Of a DNA stretch of 64,000 nt, positions 32,226 through 38,202 are shown one piece after another. The notes beneath the pieces were generated by a model, which ran no database searches, had not been told where the DNA came from, and worked only from the letters and a program-made list of their open reading frames with translations. The translations under genes were made by a program, and so were the position numbers. The DNA is from Pyruvatibacter sp. HU-CL02332 (GTDB lineage Bacteria > Pseudomonadota > Alphaproteobacteria > CGMCC-115125). Location of the stretch: contig NZ_BAABWK010000001.1 in NCBI RefSeq assembly GCF_040362765.1, forward strand, positions 186,001 to 250,000, in the 5' to 3' direction. Numbering within the stretch: position 1 is the stretch's first letter; the number at the start of each line of letters is the position of its first letter.

Positions 32226-34370
32226 ATGTCCGCATCCCTTCCAAAGACAACGGCCAAGGTCGTCGCTGAAGAGTTCAATCGCGCCATCGACAGCCACCAA
32301 AAAGGCAAGCTGGACCGCGCAAAACGCGGCTACAAGCGCGTCCTTCAGACAGCACCCAATCATGCAGAAGCACTACACCTACTAGGGGTGATTGATCTTC
32401 AACGCGACAATTTCAGCCAAGCTGCCGACCTCATTGCAAAGGCCGTAGAGCTGGCACCTGATCTTGCGCCGGCGCACTACAATCTGGCCCGCGCGCTCAA
32501 ATCACTGAACAAACTCCCCGAAGCATTGGAGTCCGTCAGAAAAGCAGTTCACCTATCACCAACAGATCCAGACTGCTGGCTTCTGTGCTGCAACATCCTG
32601 ATAGACCTCGACTTGAAAAAAGAGGCCGCCTCAGCGCTGGGCACCTTGCTCCAGCTGTCACCGGAACTGGACGATGTGCGGCGGGCGCGCGCCAACCTTC
32701 TGATGGATATTGAGGATACCGAGGGCGCGCTAAAGGAGTATGAGTTTCTCGCCAGCAATGCCCGCGTCCCTCATGAGGCCCTGCGGGATATGGCAATCTT
32801 GCGCGTGCAGCAAGACGACAAGCTGAGCGCCCTCCCCCTGCTTGAAAAGGCTTTGGAGATCAAACCTGACGACTGGCAATCACGCAGTCTGGCGGCGGGT
32901 CTTCTAATTGACCTTGATCGCAACCGGGATGCGCTGCCCCTCGTTCGCGCCATGCTCGACGAGAAGCCGGATGACATTGAGGCAAAACTCAAGATGGGCA
33001 TTATCCTGTCGAACATGCGGCGCAACAAAGATGCTCTGCCGATACTTGAGTACGTGCACGAGATGGAGCCCGAAAATTCCACCGCTCTGCTGAAACTCGC
33101 ATTCACGTATCAGTCCCTCGAGATGTTCGACAAAGCCATCGAGCATTACGAGAAAATGAAAGTCCTGATGCCAGACGAAGCGCGAAGCTGGTCCAATCTC
33201 GCTGGCCTGTATTTCGAGACCGAGGACTATGACAAGGCGCTGACTGAGGGCATGGAAGCGCTCCGGATTAACCCAAATGTCGAGCAGACCTATCTCAACA
33301 TCGGGGTCATGCTGCAAAAAATTGGTGACTATGACCGCGCGATCGACCTCTACCAGCGCGCTTTGACAGTCAATCCTGAATACTCAACGGCAGGCTCCAA
33401 CCTCTCCCATCTTTTGCTGGCAAGAGGCGATATCGAGAATGGTTGGGATCTTTATGCCCATGGTTTCAATGCTGGTCTGCGTCGTCCGATGCGTCACTTC
33501 TCAGTGGACCTTTGGGACAACAAAGACTGTTCCGATGACCGAGTACTTGTTTGGAAAGAACAGGGCGTGGGCGATGACATACGCTTTGCCTCCTGCCTCC
33601 CGGATGTGATCAACCGCGTGGAACACGTGATTATCGAAACGGACCCACGTCTGGTAACGCTTTTCCAGCGGTCATTTCCCACGACAACAGTGCGGGACGA
33701 ACGTCCAAAGCTGGAGCACACATTCGTTGGACCGCCCGACTACAACAAGCACATACCCGCTGGACAGCTGCCTGTTCATTTCCGCCGAACCCTGGATGCA
33801 TTCCCGGCAGAAGACGGATACCTCGTCCCAGATCCCAAACGCATCGCCTACTGGCGCGAAAGGGTAGAAGCATGTGGCGAAGGTATCCGCATCGGACTTT
33901 CCTGGCGCAGCATGCACCAAAGCGCCACCCGTAACCTCGTCTACACCCAACTGGACGATTGGGCGGAGCTGATGAAAACGCCCGGCATTACGTGCATCAA
34001 CCTCCAATACGACAATGCGGATGCTGAAATAGAAGAGTTCACAGAGAAAACAGGCCTCAAGCTACATGTCATGGATGGCCTGGACCTCAAGGACGACCTG
34101 GACGAAGCCGCTGCGCTGACAAAAGCATGTGACCTTGTCGTAAGTGCAGGTACCTCCGTGTCCGACATGGCCGCGGCTGTCGGCACGCCTGTCATCTTCT
34201 ACGGTGATGCCCGGCACCCCATGCAGCTGGGCACAGACCGGTTCCCCTGGTACCCGTCTTCCAGATTTGTGAGCCGGGAAGCCCGGCAACCCATTTCAGA
34301 CATCGCTAAAAGCATCACAAAGGATGTCCAAGCCTTCGCCAAGCAGTGGCACAACGGCGAAATAAGCTAG
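32226..34370 (+). CDS. TPR-glycosyltransferase, FlmG-like flagellin modification enzyme
   Basis: The 714-residue cytoplasmic protein has about ten tetratricopeptide repeats (residues 15-430, for example AEALHLLGVIDLQRDNFSQA and AIDLYQRALTVNPEYSTAGS). A glycosyltransferase-like C-terminal domain follows (about 435-714) with LVWKEQGVGDDIRFASCLPD and the donor-site-like CDLVVSAGTSVSDMAAAVGT then PVIFYGDARHP. This TPR-plus-GT build matches Caulobacter FlmG, whose TPR part binds flagellin and whose GT part attaches a nonulosonic acid before secretion. The gene lies just upstream of both flagellin genes. The sugar donor and its biosynthesis genes are not in the window. Confidence 0.82.
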   Translation: MSASLPKTTAKVVAEEFNRAIDSHQKGKLDRAKRGYKRVLQTAPNHAEALHLLGVIDLQRDNFSQAADLIAKAVELAPDLAPAHYNLARALKSLNKLPEALESVRKAVHLSPTDPDCWLLCCNILIDLDLKKEAASALGTLLQLSPELDDVRRARANLLMDIEDTEGALKEYEFLASNARVPHEALRDMAILRVQQDDKLSALPLLEKALEIKPDDWQSRSLAAGLLIDLDRNRDALPLVRAMLDEKPDDIEAKLKMGIILSNMRRNKDALPILEYVHEMEPENSTALLKLAFTYQSLEMFDKAIEHYEKMKVLMPDEARSWSNLAGLYFETEDYDKALTEGMEALRINPNVEQTYLNIGVMLQKIGDYDRAIDLYQRALTVNPEYSTAGSNLSHLLLARGDIENGWDLYAHGFNAGLRRPMRHFSVDLWDNKDCSDDRVLVWKEQGVGDDIRFASCLPDVINRVEHVIIETDPRLVTLFQRSFPTTTVRDERPKLEHTFVGPPDYNKHIPAGQLPVHFRRTLDAFPAEDGYLVPDPKRIAYWRERVEACGEGIRIGLSWRSMHQSATRNLVYTQLDDWAELMKTPGITCINLQYDNADAEIEEFTEKTGLKLHVMDGLDLKDDLDEAAALTKACDLVVSAGTSVSDMAAAVGTPVIFYGDARHPMQLGTDRFPWYPSSRFVSREARQPISDIAKSITKDVQAFAKQWHNGEIS

Positions 34371-34491: not shown

Positions 34492-34543
34492 CGCCGCTCA
34501 CTTCCAAATCGAAAAAATCCCCAGTTTTCTGCCATTTTTTTGT

Positions 34544-34559
34544 TGGCACAGAGCATGCT
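34544..34559 (+). promoter_or_regulatory. Sigma-54-like promoter of flagellin 1
   Basis: TGGCAC-AGAGC-ATGCT fits TGGCAC-N5-TTGCT with one mismatch and correct GG/GC spacing. The distance to the start codon implies a leader of about 190 nt. Confidence 0.62.
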
Positions 34560-34690
34560 CCTACAGGGCCAAGCGTTGGTCACCGTAGATCAGCTCCCTC
34601 GCCCTAGAGGACCAGGCAAAAATCCCTGTGTCCCAAATTGATGGACCGAGGCGGCAAAGTTTACCGGCGATTAAGCATTAACGATCAGTA

Positions 34691-34752
34691 TCCAGCGTAA
34701 CGAACTGGGACACATCCCTCATTGTGAGGGCGCTGGAAACGGTCCTAGGAGG
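34691..34752 (+). promoter_or_regulatory. Structured leader and ribosome site of flagellin 1
   Basis: Outer arms TCCAGCG (34691-34697) and CGCTGGA (34731-34737) enclose an inner hairpin CCCTCA-TTG-TGAGGG (34716-34730). Then TCCTAGGA (34743-34750) overlaps the AGGAGG ribosome site (34747-34752). A similar order occurs before flagellin 2. Confidence 0.5.
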
Positions 34753-34761
34753 ACATGAGAT

Positions 34762-35901
34762 ATGGGTGACATTGTACTTTCAGCGGGTATCCGCTCCAAC
34801 CTTCTGAGCATTCAGAACACCGCGAAGCTTCTTGATCAGACGCAGACGCGTCTGGCAACCGGACTAAAGGTCAACGGTGCCATTGACGATCCCACGGCCT
34901 TCTTTACGGCTCAGGGCTTGAACAATCGGGCACGTGATCTGGAGTCTTTGCTGTCATCGATGGATCAGGCCGTTCAGACACTGGACGCAGCAGATCAGGG
35001 CATCAAGTCGGTCATCAAGCTGATTGAAAACGCCAAAGCAACCGCCAACCAGGCACTTGTGACAAAGATCAAAGCCTCAACGGCAACGAGCACCAACTCA
35101 ACCGCCTTTACCGGAACACAAACCATCAGCACCATTGCTGGCGTGGACAATGGCGACAGCTTCACCATTCAGGTCGGCACAGCAGCGGCAGTAACTGTCA
35201 ATATTGCAGCGACCAACCAGGCTGTTTCGGTCATTCTTGCCAGCCTTTCAGGCATCACAGACGTAACGGCCTATCTGACCACCGACGGCAAGATCAAGAT
35301 TGAAGCCACAAATGGCGAAGATCTGGCAATTACCGACGTATCTGGCTCAGCAGCAAACAGCCTCGGGGTTTCAGGCACATCAACCAACGGTGTGAACCGC
35401 CGCTCCTTCGAGTCTGACTTCAATGCACTGCGGACCCAGATGGACCAGTTGATCTCTGACGCATCCTACAAAGGGGTAAACCTGCTGCAGGCCACCAATG
35501 ACCTGACGGTTTTCTTCAACGAAGGTCAAACATCCAGCCTGACGATCAACTCTCGTCTGCTTGATACATCCTCCGCTGGCATGAACATTTCAGAGATTGT
35601 CTCCAAGGCTTGGGCGACGGATGGCAACATCTCCGGTGCCATTGATCAGCTCGATCAGGCCGTCATTACACTGCGGCAACAGGCGTCCACTTTCGGTGGC
35701 AACCTGTCAGTCGTGGAAACAAGGTCTGACTTTACTGAGAACATGATCAATACGCTGGTCGGCGGCGCGTCTAATCTGACAATCGCTGATACAAACGAAG
35801 AAGGCGCAAACCTTCTGGCCTTGCAGACCCGTCAGTCCCTGGGTACCACCGCCCTTTCACTGGCATCGCAGGCAGATCAGAACGTGCTGCAGCTCTTCTA
35901 G
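34762..35901 (+). CDS. Flagellin 1
   Basis: The 379-residue filament subunit is exported by the flagellar type III system. The N-terminal helix (about 1-100) contains SGIRSNLLSIQNTAKLLDQT-like text, here SAGIRSNLLSIQNTAKLLDQ, with ATGLKVNGAIDDPTAFFTAQ. A surface insertion of about 100 residues (about 115-215) resembles the flagellin hook IN motif (NGDSFTIQVGTAAAVTVNIA). The C-terminal helix ends LLALQTRQSLGTTALSLASQ then ADQNVLQLF. It is 30-40% longer than Caulobacter flagellins because of the insertion. It is paralogous to the next gene, with the same length. Controlled by a sigma-54-like promoter and followed by its own terminator. Confidence 0.96.
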   Translation: MGDIVLSAGIRSNLLSIQNTAKLLDQTQTRLATGLKVNGAIDDPTAFFTAQGLNNRARDLESLLSSMDQAVQTLDAADQGIKSVIKLIENAKATANQALVTKIKASTATSTNSTAFTGTQTISTIAGVDNGDSFTIQVGTAAAVTVNIAATNQAVSVILASLSGITDVTAYLTTDGKIKIEATNGEDLAITDVSGSAANSLGVSGTSTNGVNRRSFESDFNALRTQMDQLISDASYKGVNLLQATNDLTVFFNEGQTSSLTINSRLLDTSSAGMNISEIVSKAWATDGNISGAIDQLDQAVITLRQQASTFGGNLSVVETRSDFTENMINTLVGGASNLTIADTNEEGANLLALQTRQSLGTTALSLASQADQNVLQLF

Positions 35902-35924
35902 TAGCGCTTTCAGCAAAAAATCAG

Positions 35925-35956
35925 GGCGGCTGCACTTTTTTGCAGCCGCCTTTTTT
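35925..35956 (+). terminator. Terminator after flagellin 1
   Basis: GGCGGCTGCA and TGCAGCCGCC (10-bp perfect arms) enclose a CTTTTT loop, followed by TTTTTT. It separates transcription of the two flagellin genes. Confidence 0.9.
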
Positions 35957-36071
35957 GTTTGTTTTCTGCGGATCTGCGCAATACCAGGCAACAAAGACAA
36001 CGGGACTTACCAAGCCTGTTGGATTGCAGTAACTCCCCCTTAAGACCTTTCCGCCACTGTGATCCTCGACA

Positions 36072-36122
36072 CCTCAGAAAGAGGGTCAGTTACATAGTCT
36101 TCCTAGGAAAGGAACTCAGTTC
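36072..36122 (+). promoter_or_regulatory. Structured leader and ribosome site of flagellin 2
   Basis: A hairpin CCTC-AGAAA-GAGG (36072-36084) is followed by the perfect palindrome TTCCTAGGAA (36100-36109) covering the ribosome site AGGAAAGG, and then GAACT-C-AGTTC (36112-36122) abutting the ATG. Confidence 0.5.
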
Positions 36123-37262
36123 ATGAGTGAAATTGCTCTCTCCAGCGCCCTGCGCTCGAACCTTAACTCTCTCCAGAACACGGCGTCTTTGCTTTCTCAG
36201 ACTCAGGAACGTCTTTCGACGGGCCTGCGTGTGAACAGCGCTATTGATAACCCGACGTCATTCTTCACTGCTGCCGGCCTGAACAACCGTGCACAGGATC
36301 TGTCTGCTCTTTCTGATGACATCGGCCTTGCTGTTGACACACTGAAAGCTGCCGACGACGGCATCAAGGCGATCACGACACTCGTTGAGAACCTTAAGTC
36401 CACTGCCAACGAAGCTCTGACAACAAAGATTGCTTCTTCTTCTGCAACCAGCACGAACTCAACTGCGTTCACTGGTGCACAGACGATTTCAACAATCTCT
36501 GGTGTCGACAACGGCGACAGCTTCACCATTCAGGTGGGCACTGCTGCTGCTGTCACGATCAACGTTGCTGCAACCAACCAGTCTGTTACTGCTCTTATCA
36601 CCAGCATCTCCGGCATCTCTGGCGTAACTGCCTCGCTGACGTCTGACGGTAAGATCAAGATTGAAGGCACAAGCGGCGAAGATCTTGTGATTGCTGACGT
36701 TTCTGGTTCAGCTGCCAACTCACTGGGCGTTTCAGGTACGAAGACAAACGGCACAAACCGTAACTCTTTCGTGACTGACTTCAACAGCCTGCGTACGCAG
36801 ATTGACCAGTTGGCTGGTGACGCATCCTTCAAGGGTGTGAACCTTCTTCAGGCCAACAATGACCTGACAGTGGCCTTTAACGAAGACCAGTCTTCCAGCC
36901 TGACGATTTCGTCCAAGCTGCTTGACACATCTTCCGGCGGCCTGAACGTCTCTGCTGCTACGAACAGCGCTTTCGCAACTGACAGCAACATCGACGCTGC
37001 TGTTGCTGAGCTGGACGCCGCGGTGAGCACGCTTCGTGCACAGTCTTCTTCGTTCGGTAACAACCTGTCGATCGTGGAAAACCGTCAGGACTTCACGTCC
37101 AACCTGATCAAGACACTCGAAACAGGTGCTGGCAAGCTCACCCTCGCCGACACCAACCTTGAAGGTGCAAACCTGCTTGCCCTTCAGACACGTCAGTCAC
37201 TGGGTACCACGGCTCTGTCCCTGGCTTCTCAGTCCGACCAGAACGTCCTGCGTCTGTTCTAA
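36123..37262 (+). CDS. Flagellin 2
   Basis: The 379-residue flagellin has the same architecture as flagellin 1: N-terminal helix SSALRSNLNSLQNTASLLSQ, RLSTGLRVNSAIDNPTSFFT, a central insertion (about 115-215) almost identical in sequence to that of flagellin 1, and C-terminal LLALQTRQSLGTTALSLASQ then SDQNVLRLF. Its codons differ from the paralogue: GCT, TCT and CGT are frequent where flagellin 1 uses GCA/GCG and TCA, the pattern of a very highly expressed gene. I see no sigma-54 element or FlbD-type palindrome upstream. It may be the major filament subunit, with flagellin 1 a minor or hook-proximal one; this is inferred. Confidence 0.96.
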   Translation: MSEIALSSALRSNLNSLQNTASLLSQTQERLSTGLRVNSAIDNPTSFFTAAGLNNRAQDLSALSDDIGLAVDTLKAADDGIKAITTLVENLKSTANEALTTKIASSSATSTNSTAFTGAQTISTISGVDNGDSFTIQVGTAAAVTINVAATNQSVTALITSISGISGVTASLTSDGKIKIEGTSGEDLVIADVSGSAANSLGVSGTKTNGTNRNSFVTDFNSLRTQIDQLAGDASFKGVNLLQANNDLTVAFNEDQSSSLTISSKLLDTSSGGLNVSAATNSAFATDSNIDAAVAELDAAVSTLRAQSSSFGNNLSIVENRQDFTSNLIKTLETGAGKLTLADTNLEGANLLALQTRQSLGTTALSLASQSDQNVLRLF

Positions 37263-37457: not shown

Positions 37458-37871
37458 ATGGCCCTCAAAATCGAGCTCAAGCCCGGCGAACGCTTCATTC
37501 TGGGCAACGCAGTCATTACCAATGACGACCAGCGGACCCGCCTGTTCGTTGAAGGCTCTGCACCCATTCTGCGCGAGAAGGACATCATGCGCGCTGAAGA
37601 CGCAGACAGCCCCTGCAAACGGCTCTATTTGGCTGTTCAGCTTATGTATCTGAGCAACGACCCGTCAGATCAGCACAGCGTCTATTTCAAGCTCACCAAT
37701 GACATCATCAAGGCAGCACCTAGCACCCTTGAGTACATTGAGCGCATGAACAATCAAATCTTAACCGGCGCATTCTATAAAGCTCTTAAGGAAGCAAAGA
37801 AGCTCATCAAGTATGAGCAGGAGCTCATGTCGAATGCACAATCCGGCGCAGGCCTACGGGAAGACAGCTAA
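37458..37871 (+). CDS. flbT: Flagellin mRNA regulator FlbT
   Basis: FlbT in Caulobacter binds the 5' leader of flagellin mRNA and promotes its decay when the hook is incomplete. The 137-residue protein has the family pattern LKPGERFILGNAVITNDDQR, FVEGSAPILREKDIMR and KRLYLAVQLMYLSND. The start MALKIELKP at 37458 follows GGAGAG; a TTG/ATG frame ten codons longer is not supported. The end overlaps flaF by 38 bases. Confidence 0.93.
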   Translation: MALKIELKPGERFILGNAVITNDDQRTRLFVEGSAPILREKDIMRAEDADSPCKRLYLAVQLMYLSNDPSDQHSVYFKLTNDIIKAAPSTLEYIERMNNQILTGAFYKALKEAKKLIKYEQELMSNAQSGAGLREDS

Positions 37872-38202
37872 AGTTGTTGCCAACCCGCGTGAACACGAAG
37901 CCAATCTGCTCACCAAGGCTGCGCAGCAGCTCATGGCTGTCAAAGATCCGTTTGAGCCGCGCAGCGACGCATTCCGCAACGCATTGATTTACAATCGCAA
38001 GCTATGGAGCATCTTTGCAGGCTCTGTGACCGGCGACGACAACCCCCTTCCCGATCCGATCAAGCAGAACATTGCCAATCTCGGTATTTTTATTCTCAAG
38101 CACACAGTGTCTGTCCAGGCGAGCCCTTCACCTGAGAAGCTTGATGTGCTGATCAATATCAATCGCGAAATTGCAGCCGGCCTCTATCAGCGCCCGGCGT
38201 AG
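37834..38202 (+). CDS. flaF: Flagellar biosynthesis regulator FlaF
   Basis: FlaF is a small cytoplasmic factor needed for flagellin synthesis and secretion, acting opposite to FlbT in Caulobacter. The 122-residue protein begins MHNPAQAYGKTAKVVANPRE and contains RNALIYNRKLWSIFAGSVTG and LPDPIKQNIANLGIFILKHT, conserved in FlaF. The ATG at 37834 lies inside the flbT 3' end, so translation is probably coupled. A bidirectional terminator follows. Confidence 0.93.
   Translation: MHNPAQAYGKTAKVVANPREHEANLLTKAAQQLMAVKDPFEPRSDAFRNALIYNRKLWSIFAGSVTGDDNPLPDPIKQNIANLGIFILKHTVSVQASPSPEKLDVLININREIAAGLYQRPA

Follow-up and report, generated by a model that had tools for sequence, protein, structure and literature searches.

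Flagellin leaders have been recognized as a site of FlbT action since 2000, and a flagellin locus of Pyruvatibacter sp. HU-CL02332 raises the question of what the protein would recognize there. In Caulobacter, the 5′ UTR of the flagellin transcript is bound by FlbT (PMC3930126), and the recognition element and mechanism are given as unresolved in the open literature (PMC4347634). The window, the whole 64,000-nucleotide stretch of DNA analysed here, encodes two flagellins directly followed by flbT and flaF; the initial annotation had named the last two genes correctly, as Pfam matches confirmed:

34762–35901, + strand, flagellin 1, paralogue from a clade without the element described below (tree, support 99/92)
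36123–37262, + strand, flagellin 2, with Flagellin_N/C Pfam matches
37458–37871, + strand, flbT (PF07378, E 1.6e-43)
37813–38202, + strand, flaF (PF07309, E 8.6e-33)

flbT is encoded together with the flagellin genes, as in an FlbT-dependent flagellin operon. The initial annotation had further described a CCTC...GAGG hairpin followed by a palindrome in both flagellin leaders, and the two motifs are indeed there: leader 1 has CCTCATTGTGAGG at 34717–34729 and, after a gap of 13 nt, TCCTAGGA at 34743–34750, and leader 2 has CCTCAGAAAGAGG at 36072–36084 and, 15–16 nt further on, TTCCTAGGAA at 36100–36109. A search of the 3.4 Mb genome for the combined pattern CCTC(N3-6)GAGG-N8-38-TCCTAGGA gave two sites, one at each flagellin leader, with 0 sites on the reverse strand and 0 occurrences of a reversed control pattern. 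By itself, the CCTC/GAGG hairpin is nothing out of the ordinary (6 in the window versus 4.4 expected), and TCCTAGGA is found twice in the 64 kb (expected 0.29), both times at a flagellin leader. The co-occurrence of the two motifs at both leaders is not chance.

The predicted fold of the leader 2 RNA alone consists of exactly two hairpins:

36068–36087, + strand, hairpin 1 of leader 2, GAC(A)CCUC-AGAAA-GAGGGUC (predicted fold, covariation, held-out model match)
36100–36114, + strand, SD hairpin of leader 2, UUCCU-AGGAA-AGGAA (sequence, predicted fold, CCY-AGRA-GG conservation)
36069–36116, + strand, whole two-hairpin element, candidate FlbT operator (covariance model matches)

The AGAAA pentaloop of hairpin 1 (36076–36080) is closed by the pair C36075-G36081, and the ribosome site AGGAA (36110–36114) forms the 3′ arm of the SD hairpin, 9 nt before the ATG. 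The first description needs correcting for leader 2, where the hairpin is not formed by the palindrome as such: TTCCT (36100–36104), the 5′ half of the palindrome, pairs with the second AGGAA (36110–36114). Leader 2 as a whole does not stand out in predicted folding energy (z −0.4) and its SD hairpin is weak on its own (−3.7 kcal/mol), from which we infer a protein clamp, FlbT. An Rfam search of the window and of relatives returned nothing relevant and no family for this element; a weak, sub-threshold match to L20_leader at 35789–35963 overlaps the stop codon and terminator of flagellin 1 and was discarded.

Flagellin leaders were taken from close relatives and from 80 alphaproteobacterial regions that surround FlbT, with 60 flagellin loci from genomes without FlbT as the comparison set and flagellin starts placed by profile search. 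A recurrent design, leader 2 included, was seen across Alphaproteobacteria: hairpin 1 with a C[ARRAN]G pentaloop is followed after about 20–30 nt by a CCY-AGRA-N-GG mini-hairpin just 5′ of the start codon, the 3′ arm of which is the ribosome site. The loops of hairpin 1 in relatives are AGAAA, AGGAA, AAAAN and similar ones, closed by C-G. The pair CCUC-AGAAA-GAGG and UUCCU-AGGAA-AGGAA of our leader 2 has its counterparts in GUCUC-AGGAA-GAGGC and UCUCCU-AGA-AGAGGA of Devosia, and in GACCC-AGGAA-GGGUC and UUCC-UAGAAA-GGAA of Roseibium. Relatives keep the CCY-AGRA-GG hairpin and not the palindrome that had been taken as conserved, in place of which they have CCTAGAAAGG or CCAGAANGG. Three loops in series (UCCAGGAAAGGA, CCAAGAACGG and CCAGAAAGG), possibly a multi-copy element, were seen in a Xanthobacteraceae flagellin leader (L017:1748-1848).

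Sites for the covariation analysis were picked by the seven-base loop alone and not by the stem, and the stem of hairpin 1 is therefore an independent test. Among 27 sequences, five of its six pairs are altered on both sides, with a covariation of 0.444 versus 0.238 for shuffled and at most 0.193 for slid alignments; the same result was obtained without this genus (22 sequences). Across both sets, 86–93% of cells are paired, and covariation reaches 0.44–0.47 versus 0.24–0.25 after shuffling. The SD hairpin is less regular in relatives (variable loop length, 74–78% of cells paired), as expected because its 3′ arm must remain a ribosome site.

A covariance model that contained the genus gave leader 2 a score of 48.9 bits (genome-wide E 7.6e-9); the runner-up in the genome, C1:2167670 with 20.8 bits, is overlapped by a long ORF of the other strand and was taken as chance. 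With model R2, from which the genus was excluded, leader 2 was recovered in its own genome at 39.4 bits (E 2.3e-7) and was the only significant match in each of three genus genomes (39.4, 35.2 and 41.1 bits; next best 20.3). Searching 290 genomes with model R1 gave 10 matches of at least 26.7 bits, all of them flagellin leaders of FlbT genomes and mostly training sequences or their close kin, and the held-out test therefore bears the weight. Four genomes without FlbT gave matches of about 25 bits, which are consistent with chance at that E-value.

Leader 1 offers a different picture. Its predicted features are:

34691–34737, + strand, outer stem UCCAGCG (34691–34697)/CGCUGGA (34731–34737), one compensatory change in the genus (CCGGCG/CGCCGG)
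34716–34730, + strand, hairpin CCCUCA-UUG-UGAGGG, stem kept in the genus, loop not kept and not ARRAN
34742–34754, + strand, SD hairpin GUCCU-AGG-AGGAC, fold z-score −2.7, kept in three genus species

The CCCTC/GAGGG stem is fixed in the genus and its loop is free (AUUGU, AAUCUU, GUGGAU); support for the outer stem is weak because only three sequences are available. Leader 1 (34691–34761) gave no match to the covariance model, even with filters off. The clade that holds flagellin 1 (support 99/92) comprises seven proteins and spans two families; hairpin 1 occurs in 0 of its 7 leaders, while nearly all of the sister paralogues have it. Checked for covariation and conservation in related leaders, as had been suggested, the proposal of an FlbT recognition element in both leaders is partly supported. 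It is supported for leader 2, as a candidate, by compensatory changes, conserved loops, association with FlbT and membership in the Caulobacter fljK-type class; it fails for leader 1, which has no C[ARRAN]G loop, no model match and a clade without the element. The two leaders therefore probably represent an FlbT target and an FlbT-exempt gene rather than two copies of one element, and by comparison with Caulobacter, flagellin 1 is probably an FlbT-exempt, FljJ-like paralogue. A pseudoknot between CTGGGAC (34705–34711) and GTCCTAG (34742–34748) of leader 1 was considered but is not supported: it could form in the genus and, as a variant, in loci L009 and L088, and could not in L078 and L086.

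For the comparison with Caulobacter, genomes with a flagellin 97% identical to a FljK sequence were assumed to be Caulobacter, and a diverged third paralogue was presumed to be fljJ from its N terminus and from forming its own clade (100/100). The set comprised Caulobacteraceae and one neighbouring family, with 24 ordinary and 9 fljJ-type leaders. At least one C[ARRAN]G hairpin is present in 22 of the 24 ordinary leaders and at least two in 18; those of Caulobacter and its near relatives have the form C[AAAAN]G and mostly stand in tandem. None of the 9 fljJ-type leaders has a C[ARRAN]G hairpin. Our locus resembles the FlbT-regulated leaders of Caulobacter (fljK and others) in having FlbT and FlaF, C[ARRAN]G hairpins in tandem close to the ribosome site and one exempt flagellin paralogue, but the loops there are mostly AAAAN in two or three tandem copies, whereas leader 2 has one AGAAA loop and the AGGAA loop of the SD hairpin. 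C[AAAAN]G of the fljK type and C[AGAAA]G of leader 2 belong to the same loop class and are not matches to the same model. An orthology of FljJ and flagellin 1 was rejected, as they stem from separate duplications in two lineages; the FljJ role of flagellin 1 is thus assigned by analogy, and this sharing of tasks between paralogues would have more than one origin. Diverged flagellin paralogues without the element occur in some further lineages too, for example those of the Roseibium type (MPDIVLSSAVRDNLLSL; L012:6591-6690, L021:6425-6524 and L031:6674-6773).

The element goes with FlbT. CAGAANG was found 46 times in 93 leaders from FlbT-containing genomes (0.49 per leader) versus 2 times in 66 leaders from genomes without FlbT (0.03), the background being 0.034 per 100 nt, and half of the sites in the former lie in stems, versus 11% of background sites. 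Counted by genome, A-type hairpins occur in 27 of 59 with FlbT, 1 of 32 with CsrA and 2 of 16 with neither (p 3e-6), although FlbT presence tracks lineage and the association is therefore not fully independent of phylogeny. Since only about half of the FlbT genomes have the strict A-type hairpin, either the motif is not yet fully defined or some of these genomes lack the element.

CsrA, which requires GGA, shows the reverse distribution: CsrA-like AAGUAGGAG ribosome sites were found in 0 of 59 genomes with FlbT, 13 of 32 with CsrA and 0 of 16 with neither, and CsrA-bearing relatives have GGA hairpins in place of the A-type. The two proteins themselves are nearly mutually exclusive among 178 flagellin genomes (FlbT only 106, CsrA only 46, both 4, neither 22; p 4e-21 with kinship ignored), and likewise by family (FlbT only 48, CsrA only 29, mixed 3, neither 11). 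The four genomes with both are those of L102 (G066), L108 (G134), L122 (G222) and L128 (G157). CsrA as the ligand of the leader element was ruled out, as our genome (100% complete) has no PF02599 match and hence no csrA gene.

From these results we consider it likely that leader 2 is an FlbT-dependent translational operator held by an FlbT clamp and that flagellin 1 is an FlbT-exempt paralogue of the co-repressor type. Leader 2 RNA would form hairpin 1, with its AGAAA loop, and the SD hairpin, with the ribosome site in the 3′ arm; FlbT, probably together with a flagellin co-repressor, would grip both A/G-rich loops and keep the ribosome site shut until the hook-basal body can export the co-repressor. 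Flagellin 1, having lost the loop signal, would be produced independently of FlbT, which fits a co-repressor such as FljJ in Caulobacter. There, the other flagellins are co-repressed by FlbT and FljJ, and secretion of FljJ lifts the repression (PMC7591256; PMC9812332). Repression as the direction is taken from Caulobacter; FlbT of Brucella has been reported as an activator of flagellin production (PMC4347634). FlbT is probably the protein that binds leader 2, which we regard as a strong candidate for an FlbT translational operator.

The element might instead be the target of some other factor that binds RNA, or of a nuclease governing mRNA stability, its link with FlbT reflecting shared ancestry only. 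Both FlbT and the leader 2 element do follow lineage, and a role in stability is compatible with the reported promotion of mRNA target degradation by FlbT in Caulobacter (PMC4347634). We nevertheless regard this as unlikely, given that the loops are kept across very diverged families while the stems covary, a pattern that points to a specific protein ligand, that CsrA is absent from the genome, and that the split between the paralogues coincides with the FlbT co-repressor of Caulobacter. A functional though diverged copy of the same FlbT element in leader 1 is quite improbable: the combination of CCTC/GAGG with TCCTAGGA, which in this genome is unique to the two leaders, both of them kept in the genus, speaks for it, but the leader 1 loops vary freely without ever becoming ARRAN, the model does not match and the entire clade is without the element. 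Control of the ribosome site by RNA structure alone, as an RNA switch or thermometer, would agree with the pairing of the SD in both leaders and with a leader 1 that folds better than its shuffles (z −2.7); it is hardly credible in view of the weak SD hairpin of leader 2, the conservation of the loop of this hairpin and not just of its stem, and the lack of an Rfam match.

The FlbT operator proposed for leader 2 resembles the CsrA/FliW system, an analogy with FlaF/FlbT that has been suggested earlier (PMC4894983). Both have an A/G-loop hairpin upstream, a second site at the SD and flagellar feedback; the differences are that our genome is without CsrA, that FlbT-type loops are often GAA or AAA versus the GGA of CsrA, and that CsrA-containing relatives carry the GGA hairpins and AAGUAGGAG ribosome sites. 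Aligned by hhalign, the N-terminal 40 residues of FlbT and CsrA scored 26.8 (P 1.7e-4, probability 49%), while 200 column shuffles had a mean of 10.9 and a maximum of 22.6, and 20 other families reached at most 19.2. The most conserved residues of the N-terminal part of FlbT include L38 and R39 (R in 51 of 54), which in the profile alignment fall at the CsrA strand holding R44, an RNA contact. An AlphaFold2 model of FlbT (pLDDT 90) has five short strands and then a helix, an order that agrees with CsrA; Foldseek with this model against the PDB gave no useful match and no CsrA among the matches listed, whereas a CsrA model retrieved CsrA. It is a tentative and rather doubtful idea that FlbT is a diverged CsrA-like protein which replaced CsrA as flagellin regulator in flagellated Alphaproteobacteria while the sites drifted from GGA to ARRA loops. 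The FlbT strand SILREKDI would then correspond to the RNA-binding strand of CsrA (SVLRREL), and such a replacement would explain why both the proteins and the two types of site now nearly exclude each other.

Regulation of this type has precedents; neither the consensus nor its spread nor the difference between the paralogues seems to have been described in the open literature or in Rfam. We found no published FlbT consensus in open-access papers, though Anderson and Gober 2000 and Ardissone 2020 (Dev Cell) may describe part of it for fljK. A loop-and-stem consensus that extends from Caulobacter to Roseibium and is absent from the exempt paralogue provides a putative FlbT landing site that can be probed directly by binding assays, allows a prediction for each species of the flagellin that escapes FlbT, and makes FlbT-type sites a natural comparison with CsrA sites.

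Several features lie upstream of flagellin 1. Directly upstream is a gene for a TPR protein of 714 residues (32226–34370), a layout like that of the flagellin glycosyltransferase FlmG. A sigma-54-like −24/−12 site, TTGGCAC-N5-ATGCT, is present at 34543–34559 and is clearer in L084 (TGGCACGGCTTGTGC); no such site was seen before flagellin 2. A CtrA-like box, GTTTAC...ATTAAGCATTAAC, at 34659–34683 is kept before the flagellin 1 paralogues of L009, L078, L081, L084, L086 and L088, and the fljJ-type genes of Caulobacteraceae have a GTTAACCAT box in place of sigma-54-like sites.
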